DNA of 58,724 nucleotides from a virus, in the IMG/VR virus record IMGVR_UViG_3300046167_000872, positions 1 through 58,724 of that record; one strand, 5' to 3'. The first letter of the stretch is position 1. Every line of letters starts with the position of its first letter. The translations under genes were made by a program, and so were the position numbers. The notes below the pieces were generated by a model. It searched no databases. It was not told the DNA's origin and saw nothing but the letters and a program-made list of their open reading frames with translations. Shown piece by piece: positions 9,101 to 39,405 of the stretch.

Positions 9101-12100
9101 ATGTTTAAGTTAAACGGCGAACAATACTCTTTAGAAGATTTACAAAAAGCGGCTGAAAAATACAACATGGAATTTGACGCTTATATGGAGGTTATGAAAA
9201 CTAAAGGATTAGAAGAAATAGCTTCTATAGATTCAGTTGATACCTCAAAAAAAGAAGACCTACAGACTGCGGGCGCGACTGTGGGAGAAATGCAAGTGCC
9301 CGATATGGACTTAACATCGGAAGCTGGTTCATTGGAATTTCCAGGAACTGAAGTCGAGCCTGAACCATTACCATCATTTGAAAGCTTTATACCTGAGTCT
9401 GAGTATATAACTACTACAAGATCAGGAAGGCGCCCTACTACTTTAGGCATAGATGAAGCTTCAAAAAAGTACGATGAGTACTACACCAATATTTCCCCTA
9501 TAGCTTTAGATTTAAAAAACGTTAGCTTAGACTCTGCTGTAGAGGCTTATAAAGAAGAATATTCTGATTTAGGTTTTGAATTTCACAAGAAAAGCAGAGG
9601 GATAGCAATAACTGCCCCTAATGGGAGCGAGCAGACTTTTGTTACTTCGCTGGGAGGGGGAAGACAAGGTTATCAAGGGCAGAATTGGAGTAAAGCCCAA
9701 GAGTTCATAGAAAGAAATAAGGGTGACCAAAAGGCTTGGGAAAGTAAAAAGGCAGCGATAAGAGGAATAGAATCTATAATGTCTGATATTATCGAAAAAG
9801 AGGACTATTATGATTTAGATTACGGGACTCTTAACCTCAAACAAGGGAAAGACGTTGCTATCCTAGATTCTAAAGATTTATTTTACAATCATCCTGACCT
9901 TGTACAGGGAATTAAAAACGAAGCTGTTAAAAGGTACAATAGATATAATGTAGAAGACAGAGAAAAAACATTATTTGGAGATACTGCTTTTCAAGTAGCG
10001 GATATTTCTGATTATAGATTAGACGAAATAACTGAGAATGTTTTTGCAAAAGCAATGGCGCAAGATGCTGCTTATAAGGCTGAGCAAACAAAAGAAATAA
10101 TTTTAAAAGAGGCTAAGGAGAAATTTGAAGGCGATTTAAATGCTTTGGCTGACTGGGCTACTAATGCGGGTGCAGCGGAAGTTCAAGATCCTATTGAGAA
10201 AAGAATAGCTAATAGCTGGAGAAATGTTTATAAGTTACAAAACGCTTTAGATTCAGAAAACTTAACGCCTGAGCAGCAAGTTGGATATAATGAAAACTTG
10301 TCAAAAGCAGCAAAAGAAGCGGCTGAACTAACAAAAAAACATTTAAACCCTAATAACGTAATTTTATTTAACCCTTCTGAAGGATTTACTAAAACGCTAA
10401 AACCAGGGTCTAGCGAGGAAGGCGGAATAAATATAGCTCCTCAAGTTCAAGAGGAAACAACCCGGTTGGTTGCTTTAAAAAACGGAAGCTTTAAAGCTTT
10501 ACAAAATAGATATGTAGCGCATAGAATAGACTTAACAGATATGCGCAAAAACTTAAGTAAAGAGCTAGAGGTCACAAGAGGCGACGGATCAAAGTATAAA
10601 GCGACCTTAAGTAACCTTGTCAATCAACACATAATGGGTACCGGGAAGTTTATTCCAGGTTTATCCGAAGATATTGAAGCTAGAGGCCCCAAAGGCGATG
10701 ATTTAGGAACAGGGGCTATACAAGAAGTTTTTGGAAAGCGCGAAATAGAAGGCATTGCTAAAGAGTATATGCGCCTTAAAGCTCGGGATGTAGCTTTTAA
10801 GAACATGTACCTTCTTAACATCAACCCTAAAAGTGTAGAGCGCTCTGGTTTTTGGGCATCAGCGGGAGAAGGGTTTTTAGAATCTTTATCTTCCGGTGAA
10901 GTAGTAGATTTTTATAGCGGGCCAAATGCTTCCGATGTGTTAAGTGAAGTAAAAGAAGTAGGAGACGAAGCGGGAATAGAATGGGATACAGATCAACTAA
11001 ATAATTTTAAAGAAACTGGTAAAGAATTTTTAGGAACTACAGTAGGCGGGTTACCTGTTTTAGCAAGTGAGTTTGCTTTAGCTAATGTTGTGGCCGGGGC
11101 TACTCTTGCTGTTGCAGGCGGAGATGTTTTTATAGCTGGACTTAAGGCCGGAAAATATTATAAGGCAGGAAGAAAAGCAGCAATGTCTACCGACGAAATT
11201 TTATCAGGAGCAGCTGCAGACGGGTATAAAGGTAGTATACTAAGTAAACCTGTTCAAAAATGGGTTAGTATGCAGCCGGGTATTATAAAAGTAGGAGGCG
11301 GTGTAGTAGACAGGTTAACAGCTCTTACTCTTGAGGCTACTATCGAAGGCTTTAAAATGCAAGGAGTTGTAGGGGATAGCGGGTTTGGAATGGGGGCTGC
11401 ATTTACTCCTGCTGCGGCTTTAGTTAATACATTAGCAGGAAGGCTAGGCGTGAGGTTTAAAGCTAAAGGAGCTTTTCATAAACTAAACGATATTGTACTT
11501 AAGCCGTTAAAGGGCGGTATTGTTATGGTGCCTTCCGCAGAGGGAGGGGCTATTATAGAGGCTGCTATTGACGATTACATAGGAGGAAAAGATTTTAATA
11601 CTTATTTAGACGAAAACTTTAGAGATATAGAGTGGCTTGGAGAAGGCGGAATATATAGAAGGTATTTAGGGCATGCTGTAACCGGCGCGGCACTCTCTTA
11701 TTCTCATTTACCGGTTAAAAAAATACTTACAAAAACATTAAATGGTCAAATGGATTTAAGCGCAAAAGCTTTTGAAGAAATTAACCTTATTAATGCTCAA
11801 ATAGAACAAGAACTTAAACTAGAAGGCGGAAAAACTAGAATTTCTAGGGTTTTAAAACCGAAACTTGAAAAGGCACTGGAGATATACGTCGCGGCTGATA
11901 ATTACATAAGTGAGGCCTACGCTTTAAATGAAGCAACCGATCCTCAAGCAAATGCAAGGCAAGCCTCGAGGGATATTGAAAAAACAGTAAAAGACTTTAA
12001 AAAACGCACCGGAAAAGATCTTAACTTGAGCTTAAGCATAGAAATGAAGGGTGAAAACCTAAATGGAAAAGCTGCTGAAGTTACCAAAAGAGAAGACGGA

Positions 12101-15100
12101 GGCTGGAATATTACAGTTGACGCTAGGAAATACCATAAAGGTATATTTGGGCACGAGCTCGGGCATGTTTATGGAGAAATATTTGGTTTAAACAGTCCGG
12201 AAAGCTTAGGCAAAATTGTTGATTTTATAAATAAAACAGTAAAAAAGAATACAGGAGAAGATTTAAAAGCCTTGGTGGAAAAGTCTTACGAGGGCAAGCA
12301 GGCTAAAGAACTTAACTCTGAAGAGTACTTAATGGCCGTTATAGAAATTCTTGGAAAAGGAGGAAGTGGCTTAGTAAGAAACAATGTTTATGGAGAAATT
12401 GTCCAAAATTTAAAAGGATTCTACGAAAGGAGAATGAAAAAAGGTTTTGATGGTAAAGCTCCACAACTTAAAATAGAAAGCCCCCAGGAACTTTTGAATC
12501 TTTTACAAAGACTATCTAAGGGGGTTGGTAAAGACGGCTCTGTAAAGCAATTCCAGCAACTATCTAATCTTTACTTAAACAATACCAAAATATTTGACGG
12601 TACTACAAAAGAAATAAAAGGAACATACGGCTCAGAAAATATTAGTGAACAAATTGCTAATATAATGCTAGAGCAAAGACGTATAGCATCTATACCGGCA
12701 TCGGAAAGGAGTGCCGCGCAAATTCAGAAGCTAAAAGATAATGTCATAAAAATTAAAGAGCTAAAAGCTGAAGAGACTGAAATAATTGACGTTAAAAAAC
12801 CAGCTGTTAAAGCACTAAATAAAAAAGTTATATTTTTAGCAGGTGCGGCTGGCAGCGGTAAAACAACGCTTATAAAAAACTTAGGGTTGCCGAGCAAAGG
12901 TTTTGAAATCATTAATCAAGACCCGCTTCTCGAAAAGTTTTCTAAGGAAGCTGGACTCCCTGCAGATATGAATAAGCTCACGTCGGAACAAAAAGAAGAT
13001 TGGCGAGCAGCTCAGGAAAAAGCCGGCAAAGAAACTAGAGAGCGACTAAACAAGCTCAGAGAAGCCGGAACTGGGCTAGTTTTTGACAGCACTGGAGCTG
13101 GTAAAGCTACAATGGAAAGAGATATTAGAGAATTTAAACAAGCTGGTTACGATGTTAAACTTATATTCGTTGATTCTCCTTTAGAAAAATCACTAGAAAG
13201 AAACCGACAAAGAGAAAGAGTGCTTACTGACACTGCTGTTAGGAATAGCTACGAAGCAGTGCTAGCTAATAAAAAAAGATTTAAGGAAGTACTTGGTACT
13301 GATTTAATAGAAATAAACACAAGCGACGCAGAGGCGGCTCGTAAGGCTACTTCCGATATATCTAGCAAAATAAATGAGTTTATTGGTGAAAAGAAAACCA
13401 TAATAGATGCTGATACAAAGTTTGAAAAGCTAGCTCAGCTTAAAAAAGAAAATATAGAATTAGCCGAAAAATTCGGAAAAGAACCAATTCCGGGTCCTGC
13501 TGAAAAAAGACTTGAAAAAGAAATAATAGAAGACTTAAAAGATCCTATTAATAAGCTTATAACAAATAGGACTAAAGCACTATTTGATCCTATTCCCGAA
13601 GAAGCAAGAGCTGGGGTTACTAGAGAAAAGTTTCAAGATTCTATGCGTTCAGACCTTGTAGCTATGGTACTCAACGAATATAAACCAGGAAAACAGTCTA
13701 TAGAAAAATTCCTTATTAATAGAGGGTACGTAAGAGCTTTTAACCTAGCCGAAAGACTTGGTATTAAAGCAGCAGAAAAAGGAATAGACAAAGGAATTGA
13801 AGCTGCAGAAAAAGTAGCTGCTGAACCCACAAGTGTTGAGCCCACAAAAGGAGTAAAGTTAATTGAACCTGTAGAAAGACTCATTAAAGATCCCGAGCTT
13901 AAAAATAAGTTTAAAAAACAAGTTGAAGAAGCTACAAAGGATTTTGACCCAGGAGAAGTAAACTATAAAACATTGGTAGATGCTGCTCCTGAGCTAACTA
14001 GAAAAGTATTTGGGGAAGTATTAAAAGAAAACGGTAAAGTAGATAAGGCAAAAACAAAAAAGCTTCAACAGCAGTTCATAAGAAATAATGCTGAGGTTAT
14101 CTATGCTTTGCTACCAGAAGGAGCTAGAAAGTTCGCCACGGGTCTTAAAACAGCCACAGGAATACAAGCTAGTCTTTTGAAAAATTTTTATGAAACCGGA
14201 GAACGTACGAAAATGCAGACAGGGACAGAGGCTGGGTTAAAAACTCAGACCAAAAAACCTTTTAATAAAGAAGCGTTCTTAGAAGTTTTCGGAGCAAATA
14301 AAAACCAACCACAAAACCGAAACCAACAAACAGCTATTGACGCTCTCATTAAAGAAGTTGGTAAGGCTATGACAAATAGAGCATACCGTCAGGCATTAGA
14401 GGCGCAGGAGGTTTCTATGAATACTATTCAGAAAATTGCTGATGGCAAGTCTATTAATATGGCTTCACATGGTGTTGCCGAAAAATTTGGTAAAGTATTA
14501 TTAGAAAACCCTTCTGAAAAAAATCAAGCTATTGCGGCACAAGCAATATCAATGATCTCTAGAAACTTACCTAAATTTTATCCTGAAGTTGCATTTGTAA
14601 TGCGAAATTCTGCTAAAAAACGAAATGTTACTTTAGAGTCAATAGTACAGGAAAATATTATGGAGGCCGCGCTTTGGAAAAATAACTATGAAAAAGACGG
14701 GTTAAACTATGTTCCTGCCTCTGAAATAGCTAGTAACGAAGTTATTATTGACAAAGGCAAAAAAACCACTCGTAAACAAAGATATGCGGATAGTGTAGTT
14801 ACATTGCTTGAGTATTTTGGTGACCCTGAAGCAGCAAGTCCTAGCGTTAGAAACGCTTTTTACTCTGCGGTTGGGTATAATAAAATGATAAAATTAGGCG
14901 GTCCTGACGGTTTGCGTATATCTCAGAAAAACTTTAACGCAAATAATAGAACCGAGTTATTAGAAAATGCTTTTAATAAAGGTCAAAAAATCAACTTTAA
15001 TAAGGAAAAAGGGTTTTTTGAGAAAAACCTATCCTCACGCTTTTTTCACAGTCTCTGGAAAAGGGGAGGTTACAAAAAAATACCCTTTTGGAAACGGCTT

Positions 15101-15103
15101 TAA
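9101..15103 (+). CDS. Giant polyvalent virion protein with metalloprotease and P-loop kinase motifs, N-terminal 2000 residues
   Basis: This is the largest frame in the window. With one base removed between about 15014 and 15046 (two runs of six T) it joins the downstream frame for about 2939 residues. Visible parts: an acidic N-terminus; hydrophobic helices near residues 655-700; an HELGH zinc-protease motif at about 1020 followed by the charged helices usual in zincins; and a P-loop GAAGSGKTT at about 1248 with INQDPLLEKF and FDSTGAGK downstream and an Arg-rich lid (ERNRQRER), resembling zeta-toxin or polynucleotide kinases. Such multi-domain giants are typically packaged in the capsid and delivered into the cell. 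The domain calls rest on motifs; substrates are unknown. Confidence 0.65.
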   Translation: MFKLNGEQYSLEDLQKAAEKYNMEFDAYMEVMKTKGLEEIASIDSVDTSKKEDLQTAGATVGEMQVPDMDLTSEAGSLEFPGTEVEPEPLPSFESFIPESEYITTTRSGRRPTTLGIDEASKKYDEYYTNISPIALDLKNVSLDSAVEAYKEEYSDLGFEFHKKSRGIAITAPNGSEQTFVTSLGGGRQGYQGQNWSKAQEFIERNKGDQKAWESKKAAIRGIESIMSDIIEKEDYYDLDYGTLNLKQGKDVAILDSKDLFYNHPDLVQGIKNEAVKRYNRYNVEDREKTLFGDTAFQVADISDYRLDEITENVFAKAMAQDAAYKAEQTKEIILKEAKEKFEGDLNALADWATNAGAAEVQDPIEKRIANSWRNVYKLQNALDSENLTPEQQVGYNENLSKAAKEAAELTKKHLNPNNVILFNPSEGFTKTLKPGSSEEGGINIAPQVQEETTRLVALKNGSFKALQNRYVAHRIDLTDMRKNLSKELEVTRGDGSKYKATLSNLVNQHIMGTGKFIPGLSEDIEARGPKGDDLGTGAIQEVFGKREIEGIAKEYMRLKARDVAFKNMYLLNINPKSVERSGFWASAGEGFLESLSSGEVVDFYSGPNASDVLSEVKEVGDEAGIEWDTDQLNNFKETGKEFLGTTVGGLPVLASEFALANVVAGATLAVAGGDVFIAGLKAGKYYKAGRKAAMSTDEILSGAAADGYKGSILSKPVQKWVSMQPGIIKVGGGVVDRLTALTLEATIEGFKMQGVVGDSGFGMGAAFTPAAALVNTLAGRLGVRFKAKGAFHKLNDIVLKPLKGGIVMVPSAEGGAIIEAAIDDYIGGKDFNTYLDENFRDIEWLGEGGIYRRYLGHAVTGAALSYSHLPVKKILTKTLNGQMDLSAKAFEEINLINAQIEQELKLEGGKTRISRVLKPKLEKALEIYVAADNYISEAYALNEATDPQANARQASRDIEKTVKDFKKRTGKDLNLSLSIEMKGENLNGKAAEVTKREDGGWNITVDARKYHKGIFGHELGHVYGEIFGLNSPESLGKIVDFINKTVKKNTGEDLKALVEKSYEGKQAKELNSEEYLMAVIEILGKGGSGLVRNNVYGEIVQNLKGFYERRMKKGFDGKAPQLKIESPQELLNLLQRLSKGVGKDGSVKQFQQLSNLYLNNTKIFDGTTKEIKGTYGSENISEQIANIMLEQRRIASIPASERSAAQIQKLKDNVIKIKELKAEETEIIDVKKPAVKALNKKVIFLAGAAGSGKTTLIKNLGLPSKGFEIINQDPLLEKFSKEAGLPADMNKLTSEQKEDWRAAQEKAGKETRERLNKLREAGTGLVFDSTGAGKATMERDIREFKQAGYDVKLIFVDSPLEKSLERNRQRERVLTDTAVRNSYEAVLANKKRFKEVLGTDLIEINTSDAEAARKATSDISSKINEFIGEKKTIIDADTKFEKLAQLKKENIELAEKFGKEPIPGPAEKRLEKEIIEDLKDPINKLITNRTKALFDPIPEEARAGVTREKFQDSMRSDLVAMVLNEYKPGKQSIEKFLINRGYVRAFNLAERLGIKAAEKGIDKGIEAAEKVAAEPTSVEPTKGVKLIEPVERLIKDPELKNKFKKQVEEATKDFDPGEVNYKTLVDAAPELTRKVFGEVLKENGKVDKAKTKKLQQQFIRNNAEVIYALLPEGARKFATGLKTATGIQASLLKNFYETGERTKMQTGTEAGLKTQTKKPFNKEAFLEVFGANKNQPQNRNQQTAIDALIKEVGKAMTNRAYRQALEAQEVSMNTIQKIADGKSINMASHGVAEKFGKVLLENPSEKNQAIAAQAISMISRNLPKFYPEVAFVMRNSAKKRNVTLESIVQENIMEAALWKNNYEKDGLNYVPASEIASNEVIIDKGKKTTRKQRYADSVVTLLEYFGDPEAASPSVRNAFYSAVGYNKMIKLGGPDGLRISQKNFNANNRTELLENAFNKGQKINFNKEKGFFEKNLSSRFFHSLWKRGGYKKIPFWKRL

Positions 15104-29773: not shown

Positions 29774-29900
29774 GTTTAGTTTCTATGTTGTTAATAAGTT
29801 CTGTCTCAATTTCTTCAAGCTTTGTAAAAAAGAAATCGTCGTGTCCGTTTACTGCTCCAAAATAATCTTTTATTAATTGTACTTTTTCTATTGTCGTCAT
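29760..29900 (-). CDS. Small acidic protein (46 aa)
   Basis: This frame begins MTTIEKVQLIKDYFGAVNGH and ends in an acidic helix rich in Glu. Its start overlaps the end of the HTH regulator gene by 4 bp and its stop overlaps the start of the sigma factor gene by 14 bp, a tight arrangement typical of real coupled genes here. It might modulate the sigma factor, judging only by position. Confidence 0.5.
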   Translation of the reverse strand: MTTIEKVQLIKDYFGAVNGHDDFFFTKLEEIETELINNIETKHEEI

Positions 29901-30517
29901 AGTTGTTGATTAAGTAATTCTTTTTCTTTTTTCAACTCGTTACTCATGTTCCTATATATAGTCCGCGTTGAGCAGCCTAGTAAATCCGCTAGCTTAGCTA
30001 TAGTTATGATTTCTTTATCATGGTTAAGCAATAACATTGCATCATATATTTCACTGTCTGAAATCTTGCTTCTACCAACTATTTTGCCTACTATAGTAAG
30101 CTTTTGTCGCATAGTGAGTCCAGTTGAATCTTTAAATATAACTTTCCTCAATTTATTTGGAGGAGGTTGCTCAAGATCCATTAAAGAAACATCGTAAACC
30201 ATGCTCTGTAATAATTGTTCTGAAACTTTAAAAGTTACAAACCCTGATTTTTTATTACAAATGTATTTAGCAAGCGATTCAAAGCCTTCTTGGTCCAATT
30301 GTGGGTTTAGATACCATAATACATACAAATGCCATTTAAGGCTCCTATACGTCGTTATTTTAGCCCGAGACGTAAACAATGAATAACATTCATGCGTGCC
30401 TTCCTCATAGTGCCAACCCCAGTCAAATACCCCGGTTGGTTTATCGTTTATAGGATCACGACGGTATATTATTCTATGTCTAATTAAATACGATGTGTTT
30501 CTCTCAAAGTGCGACAT
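29897..30517 (-). CDS. HTH regulator or replication-initiator-like protein
   Basis: From the ATG at 30517 the protein has 206 residues. The frame is open to 30580, but that stretch overlaps a small upstream gene and the inverted repeat at 30510-30560. The C-terminal 50 residues contain a clear helix-turn-helix (TIAKLADLLGCSTRTIYRNM) after a helical bundle. The N-terminal half is Trp/Tyr-rich (WGWHYEEGTHECYSLF), reminiscent of small initiator or regulator proteins. The same inverted repeat occurs upstream of the late operon, so this protein is a candidate for binding it and for autoregulation. Confidence 0.65.
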   Translation of the reverse strand: MSHFERNTSYLIRHRIIYRRDPINDKPTGVFDWGWHYEEGTHECYSLFTSRAKITTYRSLKWHLYVLWYLNPQLDQEGFESLAKYICNKKSGFVTFKVSEQLLQSMVYDVSLMDLEQPPPNKLRKVIFKDSTGLTMRQKLTIVGKIVGRSKISDSEIYDAMLLLNHDKEIITIAKLADLLGCSTRTIYRNMSNELKKEKELLNQQL

Positions 30518-30560
30518 TAGCCTCTTACTATTTAGATAATAACAAGCTATCGTCACACTG
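30510..30560. repeat. Inverted-repeat element, copy 1
   Basis: This 51-bp imperfect palindrome has outer arms TGCGACATTAG and CTATCGTCACACTG, with further complementarity inward. It spans the start codon of the HTH gene (30515-30517) and the stop codon of the small gene at 30528-30530. Related copies are at 37364-37412 and 38901-38949. It could be an operator or an RNA hairpin between two genes. Confidence 0.75.
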
Positions 30561-31987: not shown

Positions 31988-32212
31988 TTACAACTTTTTA
32001 AAGTTATCGGTTTTGAAAACATACTTATGCATTGCTTTACCAATAGACTTTGCTTTTTTTATTTTATTAATAACTTTAGGAGCTACGTCACTGTACTCAT
32101 ATATACTATTGCTTTTATAGAATACTTGTAGCTTTTGTGAATCACGAGTATATCGTAATGAGCTTACAAATTTTGACTCTACTAATAAATACTCTTCTTT
32201 AATTTTGCTCAT
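31988..32212 (-). CDS. KTSC-domain protein
   Basis: The 74-residue protein matches the KTSC pattern: S-S-L-x-Y near residue 17, LQVFYKSNSIYEYSDVAPKV in the middle and a K-A-K-S-I-G-K segment before the end. KTSC domains are short, found alone or next to nucleic-acid-related proteins, and their biochemical role is not settled. It overlaps the following small gene by 4 bp. Confidence 0.7.
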   Translation of the reverse strand: MSKIKEEYLLVESKFVSSLRYTRDSQKLQVFYKSNSIYEYSDVAPKVINKIKKAKSIGKAMHKYVFKTDNFKKL

Positions 32213-32508
32213 TTGCCTTTAGATTTTAGTTGTTTGATTAATTTTTCAATTTCATTTGCATCTTCATACCGTTCATCAGCGATTGCCAACTCAAGATCAG
32301 CTTTAAGTAGCTCAAGCTCTTCTTCAGTAGTAGGATAAGTCATAGTAGATGTTTTAAGCTCTACAGTGTATCCATACTTTTCTTCTAGTTGCTTTTGCAA
32401 TTCAGCATCGTACTCAGCTTGCTGCTCGATCATTCTTTTTACTGTAGCTTCTGCAATGTCATTTACAAACTTTTTATATTGTTCGTCATTCATATTATCA
32501 AAGTTCAT
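32209..32508 (-). CDS. Coiled-coil early protein with UVR-like C-terminus
   Basis: The 99-residue protein is strongly helical and acidic. Its C-terminal part (LELAIADERYEDANEIEKLI) resembles the UVR helix pair seen in UvrB/UvrC and related proteins. Two in-frame ATGs compete: 32508 and 32493. The repeated promoter motif at 32492-32526 covers both, so transcription from that motif would begin at or after the second ATG. The protein is therefore either made from upstream read-through or starts later. Confidence 0.6.
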   Translation of the reverse strand: MNFDNMNDEQYKKFVNDIAEATVKRMIEQQAEYDAELQKQLEEKYGYTVELKTSTMTYPTTEEELELLKADLELAIADERYEDANEIEKLIKQLKSKGK

Positions 32509-32526
32509 TCGTATTTGTTTTGTAAA
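32492..32526 (-). promoter_or_regulatory. Early promoter-like motif, copy A
   Basis: Read on the minus strand it has TTTACAAA, 3 bp, AATACGA, 9 bp, GATAATAT. It is a full match in block order and spacing to eight other copies. It is the only copy lying inside a predicted gene start. Confidence 0.7.
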
Positions 32527-33132
32527 TTAGTGAAATATTAATCCTACTTTGTGAGTATTACTAAACCATTTTGTAGCGTACAAATCTACGCTAGAAGCAT
32601 CCACAAACCCAGCAGATAAAAGATCGCTAGAAGTAGAAAAAATTTTGGTATGCCTGTGTTTTCTTTCATTTATTAAATGTTTTTGTTTTCCTGAATCGCT
32701 AAATATAATATCGTAATTATCTGGTAATGAAGTATCTAGCATCATCTTTACCATATTAGTGTAACTGTAAAACCTTACGTTAGGGTTGTGTATAGCAATC
32801 TGAATCCACTTATCTAAATAAGCTTTTGAATAATAATCCCCGCTATCGTGTACCCTAACATAATCAGGTTTTTTCTTAATAACCTCAGCGTTCATAGCTT
32901 CGATAAAATCATCTGTCTTCGTTAACTCATAACGCTTCTCAAACGCCGGTTTCACATTCGACCAAATATAAGCTCCTTTTTTAGCATAACAAAATTTTAC
33001 GCAAGTATCAGCCATAGGGCAGGTTAACTTACCGCTTGCTGACTTATAAGCTGGTATACCGAAGTTGAATACCCTTAAGCCTAGCTCTTTGCTGGTCTTT
33101 TTAAGTTTAGAGTTTTGAGTTAATAAGTTCAT
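32527..33132 (-). CDS. Gp88-family protein
   Basis: The 201-residue protein matches the phage 'gene product 88' family pattern as I know it: TCPMADTCVKFCYAKKGAYI near residue 37 with closely spaced cysteines, then VRVHDSGDYYSKAYLDKW near 93 and RFYSYTNM near 120. The cysteine cluster suggests metal or iron-sulphur binding; function is unknown. Copy B of the promoter-like motif lies 22 bp upstream of the start. Confidence 0.75.
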   Translation of the reverse strand: MNLLTQNSKLKKTSKELGLRVFNFGIPAYKSASGKLTCPMADTCVKFCYAKKGAYIWSNVKPAFEKRYELTKTDDFIEAMNAEVIKKKPDYVRVHDSGDYYSKAYLDKWIQIAIHNPNVRFYSYTNMVKMMLDTSLPDNYDIIFSDSGKQKHLINERKHRHTKIFSTSSDLLSAGFVDASSVDLYATKWFSNTHKVGLIFH

Positions 33133-33154
33133 AATGTTTGTTTTTTGTACTTTA

Positions 33155-33191
33155 TTATATTATCTTGAATCGCTCGTATTAGCTTTGTAAA
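33155..33191 (-). promoter_or_regulatory. Early promoter-like motif, copy B
   Basis: Blocks TTTACAAA, AATACGA and GATAATATAA with 3-bp and 9-bp spacers, 22 bp upstream of the gp88-like ATG at 33132. The leader after the motif is A-rich (ACAAAAAACAAACATT). Confidence 0.75.
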
Positions 33192-33287
33192 TTATTTCCA
33201 ATCTTCAGGCCATAGTTTTTTGGCTACGGCTTTACCTACTTTAGTAACTACTACTACGAATATAATCCATAAAATTGCTGTTCCCAT
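33192..33287 (-). CDS. Tiny membrane peptide (31 aa)
   Basis: The frame encodes MGTAILWIIFVVVVTKVGKA plus a short basic tail ending in WPEDWK. It has one membrane span with a positively charged C-terminal side. It stops exactly next to promoter motif copy B and follows the gene at 33290 by 2 bp. Its role is unknown; host-membrane targeting early in infection is possible. Confidence 0.45.
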   Translation of the reverse strand: MGTAILWIIFVVVVTKVGKAVAKKLWPEDWK

Positions 33288-33289
33288 AA

Positions 33290-33556
33290 TTAATCTAATA
33301 AATCCATGTATGCGTTAATATTATTTTTTTGAAACCAACGTAGTGCTTTGTGGAAGTCGTCGATTTGTTTACTCGTTACTGTTTTAGGGGCCACTTCGAA
33401 AACCCACTGCATTCCCATGATAAAGTCATAAAGTGATAATTCTACGGCGTTAAGTTCAACCTCAACATTTGTAAATTTATTTACCACAGTTTCGCCCTCA
33501 TCATAAACAATACCTTTAAACCATTTAGGTAATTTCTGTATAGTCTTGTTACTCAT
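33290..33556 (-). CDS. Conserved early phage protein (88 aa)
   Basis: The opening KLPKWFKGIVYDEGETVVNK and the middle segment VELSLYDFIMGMQWVFE resemble a small protein I have seen repeatedly in environmental Bacteroidota phages. The C-terminus is helical with a conserved-looking FHKALRWFQKNN. No catalytic residues are obvious. It is cotranscribed with the gene at 33561 across a 4-bp gap. Confidence 0.6.
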   Translation of the reverse strand: MSNKTIQKLPKWFKGIVYDEGETVVNKFTNVEVELNAVELSLYDFIMGMQWVFEVAPKTVTSKQIDDFHKALRWFQKNNINAYMDLLD

Positions 33557-33560
33557 AACT

Positions 33561-34070
33561 TTAGCTTAATATATTATTTACTTTATTTATAAATTCAACT
33601 TCACTTTTGACATCTTCATGCTTATACCCTTCATCTTCTAACTCTGTAATAATTTCTTCCTCGAATCTTTCGGATAAGTATGCAAACAACTCTTGGATTG
33701 CGCCATCGATAAAGTCTTGGTAAAGGTCATCTACGTATATTTTTTCCGGGTAATTTTCATCTCCGTTGCCATATCTGATAGCTTCTTGAAGCGCTTCGCT
33801 TAAATCGTAGTCATAATAGTATATGTTTTCATTTACACTTATATTTTTTGTATCGCATGTTGCTACAAAAACTGAATGACCATCAACTGTAGGCTCTTCA
33901 TAAATGTAGAAGACGGCATCTTCACTCCAGTCGTCAATGAGTTCTACGTGAAAGTGGTTTAGTACTGATTCTTTAGCTAAATCGCTGTCAGAAATTTGTT
34001 TATCGCCAAAACCTTTAGCTTCTAAACGCTCATTAATTAATTCGTCGGTAATTATTTTTTTATTTTCCAT
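33561..34070 (-). CDS. Acidic early protein (169 aa)
   Basis: This protein is unusually acidic (Asp/Glu in most turns) and has repeated Tyr residues (NIYYYDYDLSEALQEAIRYG). Acidic composition could indicate DNA mimicry or interaction with a basic host protein, but that is conjecture. It overlaps the following gene at 34060 by 11 bp. No family is recognised. Confidence 0.55.
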   Translation of the reverse strand: MENKKIITDELINERLEAKGFGDKQISDSDLAKESVLNHFHVELIDDWSEDAVFYIYEEPTVDGHSVFVATCDTKNISVNENIYYYDYDLSEALQEAIRYGNGDENYPEKIYVDDLYQDFIDGAIQELFAYLSERFEEEIITELEDEGYKHEDVKSEVEFINKVNNILS

Positions 34071-34284
34071 TGTTATTTGATTTTTCGATTAATTCTGCTA
34101 TAAAATTCCAAACTTTAAGCTCCGTTTTGTGGAGGTTAAGCATACTTTCCATTTGATCTACTGTTAATGCACCTAATTCGTTGCGTTTGATTTCGTCTTT
34201 TATTCTATTGACGTCAATGGTATTCATTGTAATTTGCGAAAACGCTTTGTCGCTTGCTCGTTCTAGTAATTCTGTTTTGTTCAT
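34060..34284 (-). CDS. Small helical early protein (74 aa)
   Basis: Encoded between two small genes, this protein is helical and charged (NRIKDEIKRNELGALTVDQM then LHKTELKVWNFIAELIEK). It starts 3 bp after the stop of the gene at 34288 and overlaps the next gene. No known domain is visible. Confidence 0.5.
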   Translation of the reverse strand: MNKTELLERASDKAFSQITMNTIDVNRIKDEIKRNELGALTVDQMESMLNLHKTELKVWNFIAELIEKSNNNGK

Positions 34285-34287
34285 TTC

Positions 34288-34524
34288 TTAATCGTTAAAA
34301 AGATTATCACCATATTTAAGATCCCAGTTAGACGCTTCAAACCAATCCATATTAGCAAAGGTATATATGTCGCGAATAGTGTCTAATGTTAAATCTTTAT
34401 ACAAAACCGTGTCGTCAAGTTTACCGAGAATATAGTTTACTGTAAAAGAATAATCTTTTTTGCTTGCTTCAAGCGCTGTTTTTACTTCAGGCTTTAGTCG
34501 TTGTAGTAAAGTTAATCTGCTCAT
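34288..34524 (-). CDS. Small early protein (78 aa)
   Basis: The protein begins SRLTLLQRLKPEVKTALEAS and later reads LDTIRDIYTFANMDWFEASN. It is the first gene after promoter motif copy C, with 20 bp between the motif and the ATG, an A-rich leader and no Shine-Dalgarno sequence. Function unknown. Confidence 0.55.
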   Translation of the reverse strand: MSRLTLLQRLKPEVKTALEASKKDYSFTVNYILGKLDDTVLYKDLTLDTIRDIYTFANMDWFEASNWDLKYGDNLFND

Positions 34525-34544
34525 AATGTTTGTTTTTGTTACGT

Positions 34545-34581
34545 TTATATTATCAAATAAGGTTCGTATTTGTTTTGTAAA
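34545..34581 (-). promoter_or_regulatory. Early promoter-like motif, copy C
   Basis: Perfect match to all three blocks with 3-bp and 9-bp spacers, 20 bp upstream of the ATG at 34524. Its upstream edge abuts the stop codon of the small coiled-coil gene at 34582. Confidence 0.75.
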
Positions 34582-34719
34582 TTATTTCGAATCACTTATC
34601 ATTCCGCGTATAGCACTGCGTTTGAAATAATCTAACTCCAGTTGCATTTGTTTAATTTTTTGGTTAAGGTTAAAAACCTCGGCTTCCAGAGCCTTAACCC
34701 TTGCTTCATTATATTCCAT
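34582..34719 (-). CDS. Small coiled-coil protein (45 aa)
   Basis: The frame encodes MEYNEARVKALEAEVFNLNQ followed by KIKQMQLELDYFKRSA, a continuous heptad-like helix. It starts 3 bp after the gene at 34723 and ends at the border of promoter motif copy C. Short coiled coils of this type can act as adaptors. No homologue is recognised. Confidence 0.45.
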   Translation of the reverse strand: MEYNEARVKALEAEVFNLNQKIKQMQLELDYFKRSAIRGMISDSK

Positions 34720-34722
34720 AAC

Positions 34723-34989
34723 TTAGGCTTCAACTTTTAAATCACTGTTTATGGTTTCCGCGATCTCAGCGAAGTCTACTTCAGATATGAAAGATCTAGC
34801 GAAGTCTTCGACAAGGTGGCTACCCGTACTCATTTCATATTGACCAAAAACCGCTTGTTCTACAATGTTTTTGATATCTTCTTCAGAGGCAAGGTTGTCA
34901 CTTGTAAACTGGTCAAAGTCAACCGCTTCTAATGCAACTCTCCATGTGTTGTAGTTGCTCCATCCGTTGTGTTTAGATTTGTTTTCCAT
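34723..34989 (-). CDS. Conserved early protein of the NGWSNYNTWRV family
   Basis: The segment HNGWSNYNTWRVALEAVDF near the N-terminus is a signature I recognise from a small phage protein family annotated as a domain of unknown function. The remainder is helical and acidic. It lies upstream of the small coiled-coil gene. The role is not known. Confidence 0.65.
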   Translation of the reverse strand: MENKSKHNGWSNYNTWRVALEAVDFDQFTSDNLASEEDIKNIVEQAVFGQYEMSTGSHLVEDFARSFISEVDFAEIAETINSDLKVEA

Positions 34990-35015
34990 TACTTTTAGTT
35001 TTAGTTATTACTTAA

Positions 35016-35206
35016 TTATTTTGACGATAAAGTACCTGCTATAGTTTCGTTAAAGATATGTTCACATGCATGGTAAAAATCGTCACCTGATAGTTCTTCA
35101 ATACTTGTTCCTGAAATCGCCCAACCTATAGAGTCTTGTAACGACTCGGTTACTGTCTTCCGCTAATGATTCGGCAATTTCTTGTATTTCTTTAGCTTCT
35201 ACTCAT
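35016..35206 (-). pseudogene. Small early gene interrupted by two frame changes
   Basis: No single frame is open, but two one-base removals restore a 62-residue-scale protein: one directly after the ATG at 35206 (giving VEAKEIQEIAESLAE) and one near plus-strand 35150-35158 (giving TVTESLQDSIGWAISGTSIE and then ELSGDDFYHACEHIFNETIA). The codons read sensibly through to the TAA at 35016-35018. Two insertion errors are more likely than a decaying gene because the rest is well preserved. Confidence 0.5.
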
Positions 35207-35331
35207 AATAGTTTTTGTTATTTTATTAAATCACTTAGCTTGGTACCTTTTTTGGTCCAGCTTGGTACCAAATTCAACAGATGATCGTACTTGTTTAAGT
35301 GAATAGCTTCATAATATTATTTTTTTTGATT

Positions 35332-35550
35332 TTAGGTTATATCGACATCATAGTGACGCCATAATCCGTTGAAACTGTGTTTCTTTGCTTTTGCACCGTA
35401 ACTAGATTTCATTTTAGTTACAACTTGGGTCCACTCTTTATCCGTTAGTGGTTTACACAATCCGTCGTGTTGGTGCTTGCGACGGTGCGCTTCTGCTTTT
35501 GCTTTTTGTACTTGCTTGAAGTGATGTATAGCATCTTTGATTTCGCTCAT
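35332..35550 (-). CDS. Basic early protein (72 aa)
   Basis: This protein is rich in Lys and His (KAKAEAHRRKHQHDGLCKPL) with a Trp-containing segment KEWTQVVTKMKSSYG and an aromatic C-terminus (FNGLWRHYDVDIT). It starts 2 bp downstream of the small gene at 35553. The basic composition would suit nucleic-acid binding. No family is recognised. Confidence 0.55.
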   Translation of the reverse strand: MSEIKDAIHHFKQVQKAKAEAHRRKHQHDGLCKPLTDKEWTQVVTKMKSSYGAKAKKHSFNGLWRHYDVDIT

Positions 35551-35552
35551 AA

Positions 35553-35726
35553 CTATCTTATGTAAGTTAAACCTTTGTAATTAAACCATTCTGTAATTCC
35601 GTCTTGTTCTTTGTCTTCGTCGTATATAAACGCGAACTTTTCAGGTAGATCTCCGATTAAGTACGGTTTGTATACTTTACCATTTAGTGAAATCTTTTTA
35701 CTTTTTAGGAACTTGATACTTTGCAT
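35553..35726 (-). CDS. Small early protein (57 aa)
   Basis: The frame begins MQSIKFLKSKKISLNGKVYK and continues PYLIGDLPEKFAFIYDEDKE, a short beta-sheet pattern. Its ATG is 21 bp downstream of promoter motif copy D, with the same leader style as the other motif-driven genes. This makes it a real gene despite its small size. Function unknown. Confidence 0.55.
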   Translation of the reverse strand: MQSIKFLKSKKISLNGKVYKPYLIGDLPEKFAFIYDEDKEQDGITEWFNYKGLTYIR

Positions 35727-35747
35727 AGTTATTTGTTTTAGTTACAT

Positions 35748-35784
35748 TAATATTATCAATCGGTGGTCGTATTTGTTTCGCAAT
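35748..35784 (-). promoter_or_regulatory. Early promoter-like motif, copy D
   Basis: AATACGA and GATAATAT are kept with the 9-bp spacer; the upstream block is slightly changed (TTGCGAAA). It is 21 bp upstream of the ATG at 35726. Confidence 0.7.
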
Positions 35785-35793
35785 TTTATTTTA

Positions 35794-35862
35794 CTACATT
35801 ATCAATATTAGACCGAGTGATAGGTATACGATTAGTATTAGTACTTCTTTTGGTGTGAACAT
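35794..35862 (-). CDS. Tiny membrane peptide (22 aa)
   Basis: The frame encodes MFTPKEVLILIVYLSLGLIL plus IM, a single membrane span. It overlaps no other gene and begins 4 bp after the stop of the 36-residue membrane peptide. It lies directly upstream of promoter copy D. It could be a chance frame; the run of similar peptides in the region favours it being real. Confidence 0.35.
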   Translation of the reverse strand: MFTPKEVLILIVYLSLGLILIM

Positions 35863-35866
35863 AGTG

Positions 35867-35977
35867 TTATAGTATTATTGTTTTTATTAGGTGTATTGTA
35901 AATCCCGCGATACCTAGTAAGGTTATAAATTGCATAGGGTATATGACTAGTATTTTTAGTATTTTTATATAGTGCAT
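35867..35977 (-). CDS. Tiny membrane peptide (36 aa)
   Basis: The product begins MHYIKILKILVIYPMQFITL and continues with a second hydrophobic stretch ending in KTIIL. It follows the gene at 35994 by 16 bp. It may be a membrane-active early peptide. No homologue is recognised. Confidence 0.4.
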   Translation of the reverse strand: MHYIKILKILVIYPMQFITLLGIAGFTIHLIKTIIL

Positions 35978-35993
35978 TTTCTTTGGGTTTTAG

Positions 35994-36176
35994 TTATCTT
36001 AATCTTTTAGGGTGGTATTCACGATAGAGTGCTAGTACTTCTTCCGTCTTGCCTAGTTCTTCCATCTTATCGATAATCTTTCGGTGGTGATCATTCCCCG
36101 CTCTCCAATAGTTCATATCATCGGAGTATTGGTAGAACCAATCGTGTTGTTTTAATAGTGTTTCTAATTCTTCCAT
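35994..36176 (-). CDS. Conserved small early protein (60 aa)
   Basis: The sequence HDWFYQYSDDMNYWRAGNDH resembles a small phage protein pattern (D-W-x-Y-x-x-S-D-D) that I recognise from other phages. The C-terminus is helical and basic (YREYHPKRLR). It starts 1 bp after the upstream stop at 36178. Function unknown. Confidence 0.55.
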   Translation of the reverse strand: MEELETLLKQHDWFYQYSDDMNYWRAGNDHHRKIIDKMEELGKTEEVLALYREYHPKRLR

Positions 36177-36177
36177 A

Positions 36178-36315
36178 TTATTTAAATTTTGCCGCTAATT
36201 CGCGAATTTCACTTTTATCTTGTTGATCTAATCCTTCGGTTTGTGACGCATATTGACGCAGTGTATAGTAAACAAAGGTTGCATCGCTTTCACTTAATTC
36301 AATTACTTTACTCAT
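36178..36315 (-). CDS. Small early protein (45 aa)
   Basis: The frame encodes MSKVIELSESDATFVYYTLR and then a charged helix (KSEIRELAAKFK). It is separated by 1 bp from the gene downstream and 11 bp from the one upstream, fitting the compact leftward operon. Confidence 0.5.
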   Translation of the reverse strand: MSKVIELSESDATFVYYTLRQYASQTEGLDQQDKSEIRELAAKFK

Positions 36316-36326
36316 AGTATTCCGGT

Positions 36327-36460
36327 TTATTTTAGGTTATTGTACTTTGTTTTATCTTCAATTCCAGCGATTACTGCGAACTCTTCACGTGTTATTTTAC
36401 CTTCTAGTAGTTTTAGGTAATCTACGGTAACATCTCTCCGCGTTTTCTTGTTTAGTTCAT
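36327..36460 (-). CDS. Probable small early gene with unresolved start (44 aa)
   Basis: A clean coding stretch (ELNKKTRRDVTVDYLKLLEG, then ITREEFAVIAGIEDKTKYNN) ends at the TAA at 36327-36329, but the only nearby ATG (36460) is one base out of frame. One missing base just after the ATG (for example GG read as G) would give a 44-residue protein. A non-ATG start cannot be excluded. It lies 6 bp downstream of the paralogous gene at 36467. Confidence 0.35.
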
Positions 36461-36466
36461 AGTATA

Positions 36467-36787
36467 TTATTTTTCGGTTGTTGAAATGATTTCACCTAAG
36501 TGTCTTACATTGGTAGGTAGGTTTGTACTTTGACTCCAATACCCGCGTTTAACCCAATTCGGTAAGATGTTTAGTTTAGGTAACATTACTTTTAATACTT
36601 CATCGTGGTTGTACCGAATAGTTTGCCCTTTGTTATTGGTGAAGGTAATAATTTGATTCCTACCTTGCCAAGATTTCCGCACTACAAAGTTTTTCCGCAC
36701 GATCGGTGGAAACACCGCTTTTAGTTGTTCCGGGGTTAATTCTTTTAACATTTCCTCTTTAGTTTTGATAGTTTCTTTAGTAGACAT
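36467..36787 (-). CDS. Early protein, paralogue 1 of a tandem pair
   Basis: The 106-residue protein is closely similar to the product at 37636: both share RKNFVVRKSW, GRNQIITF, NNKGQ, HDEVLK, MLPKL and KRGYWSQSTN in the same order, differing mainly at the ends. The conserved core is basic and aromatic, suggesting nucleic-acid or nucleotide interaction. Promoter motif copy E lies 55 bp upstream of the ATG, the longest leader in the set. The pair indicates a local duplication. Confidence 0.65.
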   Translation of the reverse strand: MSTKETIKTKEEMLKELTPEQLKAVFPPIVRKNFVVRKSWQGRNQIITFTNNKGQTIRYNHDEVLKVMLPKLNILPNWVKRGYWSQSTNLPTNVRHLGEIISTTEK

Positions 36788-36842
36788 AGTAATAAAGTTT
36801 TAATGGTTATTGTTTTATATTTGCTAATTGCTTAATTTTCAT

Positions 36843-36879
36843 ATATATTATCGAATTAACTTCGTATTTGTTTTGTAAG
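36843..36879 (-). promoter_or_regulatory. Early promoter-like motif, copy E
   Basis: CTTACAAA, AATACGA and GATAATATAT with the standard 3-bp and 9-bp spacers, 55 bp upstream of the ATG at 36787. Confidence 0.7.
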
Positions 36880-36933
36880 TTTCAAAGGGTATACTTTATT
36901 TGTTAGATAATTTAGTGTTGGTGGTGTAACTCC

Positions 36934-37125
36934 CTATCTCTCTATATACACTTGAGCTACTAAATCTTCTACAAGGTCTTTTTCTACCTCATTTTCCTTC
37001 AAAGTGCAGTTATTTTCTACAAATTCTTCGATTTCGGAGTATACTTCTTCTTTTGATGCGTAGGAAGACATGAATTTGAAGTGATCTACTGTGTCTTCGT
37101 TAAAGGTGTACTTAAATGTTTTCAT
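36934..37125 (-). CDS. Small acidic early protein (63 aa)
   Basis: The protein begins MKTFKYTFNEDTVDHFKFMS and continues with acidic helices (SKEEVYSEIEEFVENNCTL). It is the first gene after promoter motif copy F (22 bp). Acidic small proteins in early operons often target host factors, but no target is evident. Confidence 0.55.
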   Translation of the reverse strand: MKTFKYTFNEDTVDHFKFMSSYASKEEVYSEIEEFVENNCTLKENEVEKDLVEDLVAQVYIER

Positions 37126-37147
37126 ATTTTCTTTGTTTTTGTTACAT

Positions 37148-37184
37148 TTATATTATCGAAATACCCTCGTATTCGGTTTGCAAA
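37148..37184 (-). promoter_or_regulatory. Early promoter-like motif, copy F
   Basis: TTTGCAAA, AATACGA and GATAATATAA with 3-bp and 9-bp spacers, 22 bp upstream of the ATG at 37125. It is immediately preceded on the minus strand by repeated TGTATAGCA-type sites. Confidence 0.75.
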
Positions 37185-37185
37185 A

Positions 37186-37269
37186 TGCTATACGCGGTGC
37201 TATACACGAAAAAGCGGTAAAATTACTTTTTTTTGAGAAAGTTCAGTATACTTTCGGTGTGCTATACAC
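37186..37269. repeat. Iteron-like sites upstream of promoter copy F
   Basis: TGCTATAC occurs at about 37186, 37198 and 37260, the first two 12 bp apart, close to a helical turn. The palindrome GTATAC also recurs at about 37247 and 37286. The same sites are found next to promoter copy I. They resemble activator or operator binding sites placed upstream of selected promoters. Confidence 0.5.
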
Positions 37270-37363
37270 AATATTGTACGGTGGAGTATACTCTTCCGAT
37301 CTTATTTCAGGATCAGGCCCTTTTTACTTCGCTATATTTGGAAACGGCTAGAGAATTTTAGAG

Positions 37364-37412
37364 AGTGTGACGTTAGCCTGTTATATATATATAATAGCAG
37401 GCTATTGTCGCA
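37364..37412. repeat. Inverted-repeat element, copy 2
   Basis: The arms AGTGTGACGTTAGCCTG and CAGGCTATTGTCGCA flank an AT-only centre. This is the best-paired of the three copies and lies in opposite orientation to copy 1. It is between the small gene at 37422 and the iteron-like sites. Confidence 0.75.
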
Positions 37413-37421
37413 CTGTTAAGC

Positions 37422-37588
37422 TTAAGAAATTCGCTTTGCTACGTGCTTGTCGATCTCTCTTTTTAGCTTCTCCAGATCTCGATCACAGATGTAGTCTATA
37501 AACTCTGGTGGGTCTGTTGACATGTCCTGTATTTCAAGATCGAACGTTTTCCATTGTGATGATAAGTAAGTTGAAATTGTAAAGTCAT
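37422..37588 (-). CDS. Probable small early gene with unresolved start (about 55 aa)
   Basis: The coding stretch DFTISTYLSSQWKTFDLEIQ followed by DMSTDPPEFIDYICDRDLEK ends at 37422 and is clearly protein-like, but the ATG at 37588 is one base out of frame, as at 36460. The frame is open further upstream without a canonical start. A one-base deletion after the ATG is the simplest reading. It lies 9 bp from inverted-repeat copy 2. Confidence 0.4.
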
Positions 37589-37635
37589 AATATCTGTTTT
37601 TATATTTAGTTAATCCCCGAGGGGGGAGGAGGAGC

Positions 37636-37944
37636 TTATTCAGCCCCTTCCTCGATTGTTGCTAGGCTTCGTACATTCGCAGGCATATTGGTTGATTGTG
37701 ACCAGTATCCTCGCTTGATCCAGCATGGCATGATGCTTAGCTTAGGTAACATTGCTTTGAGAACCTCATCGTGGTCGTAGGTCATTACTTGTCCTTTATT
37801 GTTTTTGAAGGTGATGATTTGGTTACGACCCATCCATGATTTTCTTACCACGAAGTTCTTACGTTCGATTGGTGGGAAGATTGCTTTCAATTCTTCTTTG
37901 CTTAATTTAGCGATTGCTTGTTGTACTGTTTCTTGCTTGTTCAT
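37636..37944 (-). CDS. Early protein, paralogue 2 of a tandem pair
   Basis: From the ATG at 37944 the product has 102 residues and matches the protein at 36467 along its whole length (shared blocks RKNFVVRKSW, GRNQIITF, NNKGQ, KRGYWSQSTN). The frame is open to 37998, but the paralogue comparison favours 37944. The two copies flank the iterons and inverted-repeat copy 2. The function is unknown; the invariant Arg/Lys/Trp/Tyr positions suggest a nucleic-acid-binding surface. Confidence 0.65.
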   Translation of the reverse strand: MNKQETVQQAIAKLSKEELKAIFPPIERKNFVVRKSWMGRNQIITFKNNKGQVMTYDHDEVLKAMLPKLSIMPCWIKRGYWSQSTNMPANVRSLATIEEGAE

Positions 37945-37981
37945 AATATTAAATTTTATAGTTATTAATTTGTTGTTTAGT

Positions 37982-38053
37982 TTATCCCAAGATTGCAATT
38001 AGTAAGTAGATGTGTATTGCTAATCCGATTAGTTTGATTGTATTTGAGTTCAT
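37982..38053 (-). CDS. Tiny membrane peptide (23 aa)
   Basis: The frame MNSNTIKLIGLAIHIYLLIA plus ILG is a single hydrophobic span. It begins 20 bp after promoter motif copy G, at the same spacing as other motif-driven genes, which makes it likely to be expressed. Confidence 0.45.
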   Translation of the reverse strand: MNSNTIKLIGLAIHIYLLIAILG

Positions 38054-38073
38054 AATTGTTATTTTAAATTCAC

Positions 38074-38110
38074 TTATATTATCGTTTGTACTTCGTATTC
38101 ACTTTGTAAA
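38074..38110 (-). promoter_or_regulatory. Early promoter-like motif, copy G
   Basis: Perfect three-block match (TTTACAAA, AATACGA, GATAATATAA) with standard spacers, 20 bp upstream of the ATG at 38053. A 14-bp sequence at 38131-38144 recurs near copy I. Confidence 0.75.
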
Positions 38111-38143
38111 AATTCCATGATCGATAGACTCGGATGGGTGAGG

Positions 38144-38305
38144 TTACACGAGCTCGCAATAAGGATCAATTGCATCTAGTAGCTCCCCTAAGTATTCGTC
38201 TAGCTGGTCCTGGCTCATTCTGTCCAGCTCTCTTGGATTCGCCCAGTCATGCATTCTTATTAGGCTGATCGTTGCGCTTCGTTCGTTGTGTCTTGTATTC
38301 ATCAT
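38144..38305 (-). CDS. Small early protein (53 aa)
   Basis: The product reads NTRHNERSATISLIRMHDWA followed by an acidic helix (RELDRMSQDQLDEYLGELLD). Two ATGs in a row (38305 and 38302) offer the start. It is 20 bp downstream of promoter motif copy H. No family is recognised. Confidence 0.5.
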   Translation of the reverse strand: MMNTRHNERSATISLIRMHDWANPRELDRMSQDQLDEYLGELLDAIDPYCELV

Positions 38306-38325
38306 AATCTTTATTCTTTATTCAC

Positions 38326-38362
38326 TTATATTATCGAATATACCTCGTATTTAGTTTGTAAT
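38326..38362 (-). promoter_or_regulatory. Early promoter-like motif, copy H
   Basis: ATTACAAA, AATACGA and GATAATATAA with standard spacers, 20 bp upstream of the double ATG at 38305. It touches the stop codon of the next gene upstream. Confidence 0.75.
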
Positions 38363-38484
38363 TAATTTTCTAAAATATCTTTTATTGAATCATTTGTATA
38401 AGGTAATATTTTGTTTATATAAAAAGTTTCAATTTCATTTTGATTTGGATTTTTACTTAAAAATTCTAATATTAATTTTTTCAT
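38362..38484 (-). CDS. Small early protein (40 aa), first gene of the leftward region
   Basis: The frame MKKLILEFLSKNPNQNEIET continues FYINKILPYTNDSIKDILEN. It is a helical, Asn-rich peptide, the outermost gene of the early region, 43 bp downstream of promoter motif copy I. Confidence 0.45.
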   Translation of the reverse strand: MKKLILEFLSKNPNQNEIETFYINKILPYTNDSIKDILEN

Positions 38485-38527
38485 TTTTATTATTTAATTT
38501 GTTATTATTATTAATTTTTTTATTCAT

Positions 38528-38564
38528 TTATATTATCAAATGTACTTCGTATTCCGTTCGTAAA
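38528..38564 (-). promoter_or_regulatory. Early promoter-like motif, copy I
   Basis: TTTACGAA, AATACGA and GATAATATAA with standard spacers, 43 bp upstream of the ATG at 38484. Three iteron-like sites abut its upstream edge. Confidence 0.75.
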
Positions 38565-38594: not shown

Positions 38595-39027
38595 CCCTGC
38601 GGGTTATCACAACCGTCGGTCCGGATGGGTGAGGTCTGTAACGCTACTGCTACGCAAGCAGGATCAGCGCAGAAAACCAGATCCACATCAGGCAAGATCA
38701 AGCAACACTCACGGCAGTACTCCCCGGAAAAGTTCATAATATCCCAGGGAAACCAGGCAAAAGGCCAAAGCATATCCCGAAAACGTACAAAAAAAGGGGG
38801 ACTGGGTGAAAACAAAACGATTTTCCATATCAACCGGTAAGCGTAAAAATAGTATGTAACCCCATAGTTCCATATATCTAACATCAAAAAAAACTACGAA
38901 TGCGACATTAGGTAGCTATATTAAATAGTAAGAGGCTATCGTCACACTGGGGGCTAATGTAAATTTTAGAACGCGCGCGTAAGTATATAAGGTATAATAA
39001 ACAAACTAATAACTAAATATATACAAA
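38595..39027. other. 433-bp GC-richer intergenic region between the divergent early and late operons
   Basis: I see no convincing gene here. The reading frames on either strand lack start context and have odd composition. Base composition (about half G+C at 38600-38840) differs from the AT-rich surroundings. It holds a CACCC/GGGTG potential stem, a 14-bp repeat (38622-38635), inverted-repeat copy 3, and near 38990 an AT-rich TATAATAA box before the late operon. An origin of replication, a structured RNA or the late control region are the plausible contents. Confidence 0.55.
38901..38949. repeat. Inverted-repeat element, copy 3
   Basis: Outer arms TGCGACATTAG and CTATCGTCACACTG are identical to copy 1; the inner arms differ. 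It lies about 78 bp upstream of the first late gene, as a candidate control site for rightward transcription. Confidence 0.75.
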
Positions 39028-39405
39028 ATGGCTTACAAACAACAACAAGGGAGAAGCGAGTTCTCCAAAACAGGTAGAGGAATTACAAGCAAACTAGCTG
39101 GGCCAGAAAATCCGCCAAAAGACATAACTACCAACGAAGGAGTTTCTGCTCGAATAAAAAATATAGCAAAGGGCGTTCAAACAGGAAAAGCAACTATTGG
39201 TAGAGCAATGAGTGCGTTGTACAATCTGCAAGGAGCTTCTACAGGAGACAAAATTGATTATAGGCGATACCAAAAAGATTCTACAAATATAGCTAATACA
39301 GAAACAAACCTAATAAGTGGAGGAACGTATAATTATGGAAAAATGGTTCGCGGTCTTTCTGGAAAAGATGCTATAAAAAAATTAAAAAAATACAACGATC
39401 AATAA
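39028..39405 (+). CDS. First gene of the late operon; hypothetical basic protein
   Basis: The 125-residue protein is Lys/Gly/Thr-rich, begins MAYKQQQGRSEFSKTGRGIT, and contains a helical segment near residues 40-75. Its basic composition and position with other lysine-rich genes suggest a small virion or DNA-associated protein. It follows the putative late control region. No family is recognised. Confidence 0.55.
   Translation: MAYKQQQGRSEFSKTGRGITSKLAGPENPPKDITTNEGVSARIKNIAKGVQTGKATIGRAMSALYNLQGASTGDKIDYRRYQKDSTNIANTETNLISGGTYNYGKMVRGLSGKDAIKKLKKYNDQ

Follow-up and report, generated by a model that had tools for sequence, protein, structure and literature searches.

The minus strand of a 58.7-kb virus record, analysed here over its full length (the window), carries a three-block element that recurs nine times in a region of small early-type genes, raising the question of whether these repeats are promoters and, if so, what would read them. 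The late genes of the window resemble those of podovirus-type flavophages (elemo, Cellulophaga phages, Maribacter phage Panino and the uncultured MW202828), and the minus strand between 18 and 38.9 kb encodes nucleotide, replication, recombination and small early-type genes together with a 253-aa sigma factor; "early" here refers to gene content and layout, not to RNA timing. The sigma factor has weak matches to FliA and SigA, and tblastn against phage records returned remote matches only, with no relevant isolate. The window also encodes a paralogue-like pair of unassigned function (37636–37944 and 36467–36787; 102 and 106 aa), present in 14 of 15 motif-bearing genomes and absent from controls, the second with a repeat copy 53 nt ahead of its ATG, and, on the late strand, a 2000-aa protein (9101–15103) with an AAA/zeta-toxin-like kinase domain (PF13671, PF06414).

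A first-pass annotation had described nine minus-strand copies with constant spacers and minor changes in the outer blocks. All nine were recovered at the annotated positions (Table 1), save that the copy placed at 32492–32526 had been cut 2 nt short and truly extends over 32490–32526 (GATAATATGA); the spacers of 3 and 9 bp are indeed constant throughout. The variation ascribed to the outer blocks is real for block 1 (TTTACAAA, ATTGCGAA, TTTACGAA and others) and does not extend to AATACGA-N9-GATAATAT, which has nine exact matches in the window, on the minus strand only. Allowing two mismatches adds one poor match, the chance expectation being 0.25, and no shuffle reaches 10. A matrix built from sites in relatives gives the nine copies 33–43.5 bits; the runner-up elsewhere in the window gets −12, and the top score among 40 shuffles is −1.0. 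The annotated ATG distances also hold, provided that small ORFs are counted: the ATG lies 18–20 nt from the inferred start in six copies (2–4 and 6–8) and 41 and 53 nt from it in two (1 and 5).

Table 1. Motif copies and putative regulators in the window.
Feature	Position	Strand	Details
Copy 1	38528–38564	−	−10 hexamer 38532–38537; predicted +1 38525; ATG 41 nt downstream
Copy 2	38326–38362	−	−10 hexamer 38330–38335; predicted +1 38323; ATG 18 nt downstream, 53-aa ORF
Copy 3	38074–38110	−	−10 hexamer 38078–38083; predicted +1 38071; ATG 18 nt downstream, 23-aa ORF
Copy 4	37148–37184	−	−10 hexamer 37152–37157; predicted +1 37145; ATG 20 nt downstream, 63-aa ORF
Copy 5	36843–36879	−	−10 hexamer 36847–36852; predicted +1 36840; ATG 53 nt downstream, 106-aa ORF
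Copy 6 (block 1 most diverged)	35748–35784	−	−10 hexamer 35752–35757; predicted +1 35745; ATG 19 nt downstream
Copy 7	34545–34581	−	−10 hexamer 34549–34554; predicted +1 34542; ATG 18 nt downstream, 78-aa ORF
Copy 8	33155–33191	−	−10 hexamer 33159–33164; predicted +1 33152; ATG 20 nt downstream, 201-aa GP88-like protein (PF17338)
Copy 9	32490–32526	−	−10 hexamer 32494–32499; predicted +1 32487; overlaps 5' end of ORF 32209–32508
HTH_11 (PF08279) DNA-binding protein	29897–30517	−	directly upstream of sigma; in 86/87 relatives
Phage sigma factor, 253 aa	29012–29773	−	regions 2–4; phrog_351, PF04542; top fold matches: RNA polymerase sigma factors

The motif is common among related viruses. Used as bait, AATACGA-N9-GATAATAT retrieved at least 120 IMG/VR stretches and a 22-letter version at least 119; the number of IMG/VR contigs with the three blocks exceeds 100, and all 15 near-complete relatives carry the motif, on the early strand without exception. 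A scan of 257 Gb of cellular genomes yielded the strict motif in five contigs, mostly small or phage-like. Motif contigs binned as an Ilumatobacteraceae MAG, a Prochlorococcus single-cell genome and a Rhodobacteraceae MAG (L164, L165 and L167) are probably explained by phage DNA carried along. Scans of elemo, Panino and MW202828 gave zero sites, and a consensus blastn search found no relevant isolate, that is, no cultured phage with the motif; every motif-bearing relative is metagenomic, its host being predicted from relatives. In the open-licence literature we found no mention of the motif and no account of such a regulon from phages of Bacteroidota. The repeats are almost certainly start signals of early genes, of a type common to a large set of uncultured phages of Flavobacteria-like hosts.

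The anatomy of the sites is that of a promoter. In 192 sites fetched with AATACGA-N9-GATAATAT as sole bait, conservation extends to positions independent of the bait, namely TACAAA in block 1 and T and A at positions 10 and 11 (−30/−29); position 40 is a purine in 192 of 192, and G never occurs at position 39 (−1). A purine at position 40 was also seen in 807 of 812 distinct sites, in which A-11 and T-7 of the −10 are invariant. When GATAAT is read as −12 to −7, position 40 falls exactly on +1, and the comparative data fix a geometry in which GATAAT would be the −10 element and the nearly constant purine 7 nt downstream the start site. The invariant A-11 and T-7, the purine start 7 nt past T-7 and a peak of ATGs at that start place the sites in the sigma-70 family. 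The conserved TACAAAcTA sits where region 4 would read a −35 element, about 17 bp upstream, its covariation with sigma being at the lineage level and sigma column 231 losing significance when the null is built on the sigma tree.

An ATG lies exactly at +1 in 121 sites, 117 of them opening at least 40 codons, compared with a single ATG at one adjacent base and 5 at the other, and the leaderless genes have 83 different N-termini. A second ATG hump, 17–24 nt past the start, matches the A-rich leaders of the window. By this reckoning about one site in seven (~14%) is predicted to yield a leaderless mRNA; the leaderless share of mRNAs in F. psychrophilum is 5.5% (PMC9723704). Separately, an ATG occurs at −2 in 248 of the 812 pooled sites and opens a gene in 9, the start often being the G of ATG with TAA directly next to it (ATGTAAC).

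Block 2 has, to our knowledge, no counterpart among sigma-70 promoters, and we know of no standard sigma region that makes sequence-specific contact with the part of the spacer where AATACGA lies (−28 to −22). TACAA (positions 3–7) and TACGA (positions 14–18) form a direct repeat (TACRA) with an 11-bp period, the clearest self-similarity offset of the element. We tentatively raise three-block recognition as a possibility, in which the 7-bp block at −28 to −22 in the −35/−10 spacer, one helical turn (11 bp) past the similar sequence of block 1, might be recognised by another domain of the sigma, by an additional sigma molecule or by a partner protein; such recognition is not known to us in any sigma-70-family promoter.

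The distribution of the sites ties them to the sigma gene. In the 15 near-complete genomes, all 132 sites are on the sigma strand and zero on the late strand, and a looser scan of 180 sigma loci gave 758 sites on the sigma strand versus 3 on the other. This restriction to the early strand, together with the promoter anatomy, supports the earlier view of the nine copies as promoters of the early region. In a set of loci selected by primase, and so blind to both motif and sigma, 30 of 30 loci having 10 kb upstream contained sigma and at least two sites, compared with motif or sigma in 0 of 19 elemo-group loci. A second motif-blind set, chosen by a virion protein, included one record seemingly with sigma and no motif, which proved to have the AACACGA dialect, and one with diverged sites and no sigma, which also lacks primase and ends inside the early region. 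The promoters and the sigma gene occur together or are missing together, the pattern of a phage sigma regulon, and the case that the first-pass annotation had named as refuting, relatives with the same genes and no motif, did not arise. Two records each contain two differing sigma copies (L130 and L157 in G005; L129 and L158 in G013). A motif copy directly ahead of the sigma ATG was seen in only 4 of 87 relatives, and sigma autoregulation was dropped as a general rule.

That the motif is unlike the Bacteroidota promoter (−33 TTTG/−7 TAnnTTTG) was confirmed by sequence. It has neither TAnnTTTG at −12 to −5 nor TTTG near −33, the marks of Bacteroidota sigma-A promoters, and GATAAT has only A-11 and T-7 in common with TAnnTTTG, although the host core enzyme is likely the same at both. 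The host −7 box is also depleted: by counts that are approximate, as upstream regions came from a simple ORF caller, TAHHTTTG occurs in 11 of 20 elemo upstream regions; in motif phages, 7 of 241 early regions and 12 of 156 late ones have it, and GATAATA occurs in 86 of the 241 early regions. The motif phages therefore appear to have given up promoters of the host type. In agreement with F. johnsoniae (PMC6847099), the leaders here are without a Shine-Dalgarno sequence and A-rich before the ATG. A search for a host-type promoter for the first transcripts found none, though an imperfect minus-strand candidate lies near 38774; the first sigma could come from a weak host-type promoter missed here or be a virion-carried protein. 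As for late genes, a possible promoter (GTAAGTATATAAGGTATAAT, 38979–38998) precedes the gene at 39028 and is matched exactly in only two relatives (G014, G039), and a candidate late promoter, GTAAGTAT..GGTATAAT, was rejected, being ahead of late genes in few genomes only.

The element exists in natural dialects. Block 2 varies by genome (AATAATA, AATACAA, AATACGT, AACACGA), block 1 less so and GATAAT hardly. The state of position 10 fits the sigma tree with lnL −30.6, versus −43.0 for the HTH protein, −45.0 for Erf and −47.5 for primase, with separate bootstrap ranges; position 17 gives the same order of trees more weakly, and the remaining positions do not discriminate. The HTH gene, located between the promoters and sigma, nonetheless fits position 10 worse than sigma does. 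When traits are simulated on the joint (concatenated) tree, sigma alone covaries clearly, the best column being 231 (familywise p 0.002), at which E goes with A and Q with T at position 10 (−30). Column 231 is inside the predicted recognition helix (225–243), and alignment by eye pairs it with Q589 of E. coli sigma70, which we take to be a −35 contact. With the sigma tree alone as null, zero single sigma residues are significant, and column 111, which belongs to region 2, comes close to 231 in score for a position on the −35 side, a point in favour of lineage effects. A residue-level sigma–promoter contact, significant on the concatenated tree only, was not retained, and the null result limits our claim to one of co-inheritance of promoter dialect and sigma gene at the lineage level; part of this link could be due to exchange of linked DNA.

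Several other readings bear weighing. Blocks 1 and 2 can be viewed as a single 18-bp stretch centred near −30, like MotA boxes, in which case the copies would be activator-dependent promoters of the T4 middle type, with a phage DNA-binding protein on both blocks and a polymerase (with phage or host sigma) reading GATAAT only. The 11-bp direct repeat would suit such a protein, and the HTH protein adjoining sigma, missing from controls, offers a candidate. We consider this arrangement unlikely. T4 middle promoters share a conserved box near −30 plus a −10, but here no MotA homologue was seen, the −10 is not of host type and the position-10 dialect tracks sigma. The HTH protein probably has a site of its own: an inverted repeat (GTGTGACATTAGCC/GGCTAATGTCACAC, loop ~20 bp), common to many relatives, lies at 38900–38947, before the first late gene, at 37365–37413, inside the early region, and at 30508–30558, across the HTH gene start; it is likely the operator of this protein. 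Its placement there and before late genes points to the HTH protein as a likely independent early/late regulator, one that probably acts at this palindrome and not at the motif. This separate site, and the lack of significant covariation between HTH sequence and dialect, weaken the protein as a reader of the motif.

A reading by a T7-like single-subunit phage RNA polymerase draws on AATACGA, which we take to be −16 to −10 of the T7 promoter; to this exact 7-mer match is added a T7-like spacing, with the 9-bp gap placing +1 on the G of GATAAT. We rejected this very improbable reading, since the leaderless peak and the purine lie 12 nt downstream of that G and the 7-mer drifts between dialects while GATAAT is constant; in addition, no such polymerase was found among the large window proteins scanned, and PF00940 was not matched in 17 motif-bearing records, a search of little weight as the control was silent too. 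It is scarcely credible that the copies are repeated operators, replication or recombination sites: they are dispersed, as phage operators can be, but keep a constant strand and orientation, a −10-like element, a purine start and a set spacing to the ATG. The first-pass annotation had left the choice of reader between a phage-directed polymerase, naming the phage sigma, and a host alternative sigma. Co-occurrence and dialect co-inheritance favour the phage sigma. A host sigma at the motif, with the phage sigma serving late genes, is quite improbable: late promoters are without assignment, so the sigma targets are not all mapped, but the strict motif is nearly absent from cellular genomes, relatives' late strands have zero copies, the dialect follows the phage sigma gene, and the six F. 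psychrophilum sigma motifs (sigma-A TAnnTTTG variants, sigma-54, TAnnTTGY, ECF CGT) do not fit (PMC9723704).

Host core RNA polymerase with the phage sigma is likely the correct, and is the simplest, mechanistic reading, and the copies are probably sigma-70-family promoters of early/middle operons used by this pair. It draws on features shown by comparative sequence, namely the blocks and their spacers, the restriction to one strand, the −10/+1 geometry, the leaderless starts and the tie to sigma. The phage sigma would re-aim the host core enzyme to the motif promoters, region 2 opening GATAAT (−12 to −7), (T)TACAAAcTA (−39 to −29) lying at the place where region 4 reads a −35 element, and transcription beginning at the purine 7 nt past the last T of GATAAT. 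As the sigma gene is downstream on the same strand, such a system could feed itself.

Among known systems, FliA/sigma-28-type promoters (TAAA...GCCGATAA) share a GATAA-type −10, and the phage sigma is of similar size to FliA-type factors, whereas the motif is without GCC ahead of GATAA and has another upstream element and an extra spacer block. The promoter sequences of the SPO1 and T4 phage sigmas differ from the motif, and these belong to other phage groups; the present phages have three blocks, leaders rich in A and a large number of leaderless starts. Phage sigmas with dedicated promoters are already known (SPO1 gp28, T4 gp55), and at SPO1 middle genes (gp28), as at T4 late genes (gp55), they redirect the host core polymerase to promoters outside the range of the host sigma (PMC9429907 for gp28, gp34 and gp55).

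Our analyses thus define, from sequence alone, a candidate programme of transcription in a large group of uncultured Bacteroidota phages, naming a protein and predicting starts at single-base resolution. They suggest that many early mRNAs are leaderless and, if these phages depart from the unusual Bacteroidota promoter, that their promoters may be useful for Flavobacteria expression tools. The natural dialects paired with sigma variants would be ready-made material for specificity swaps.
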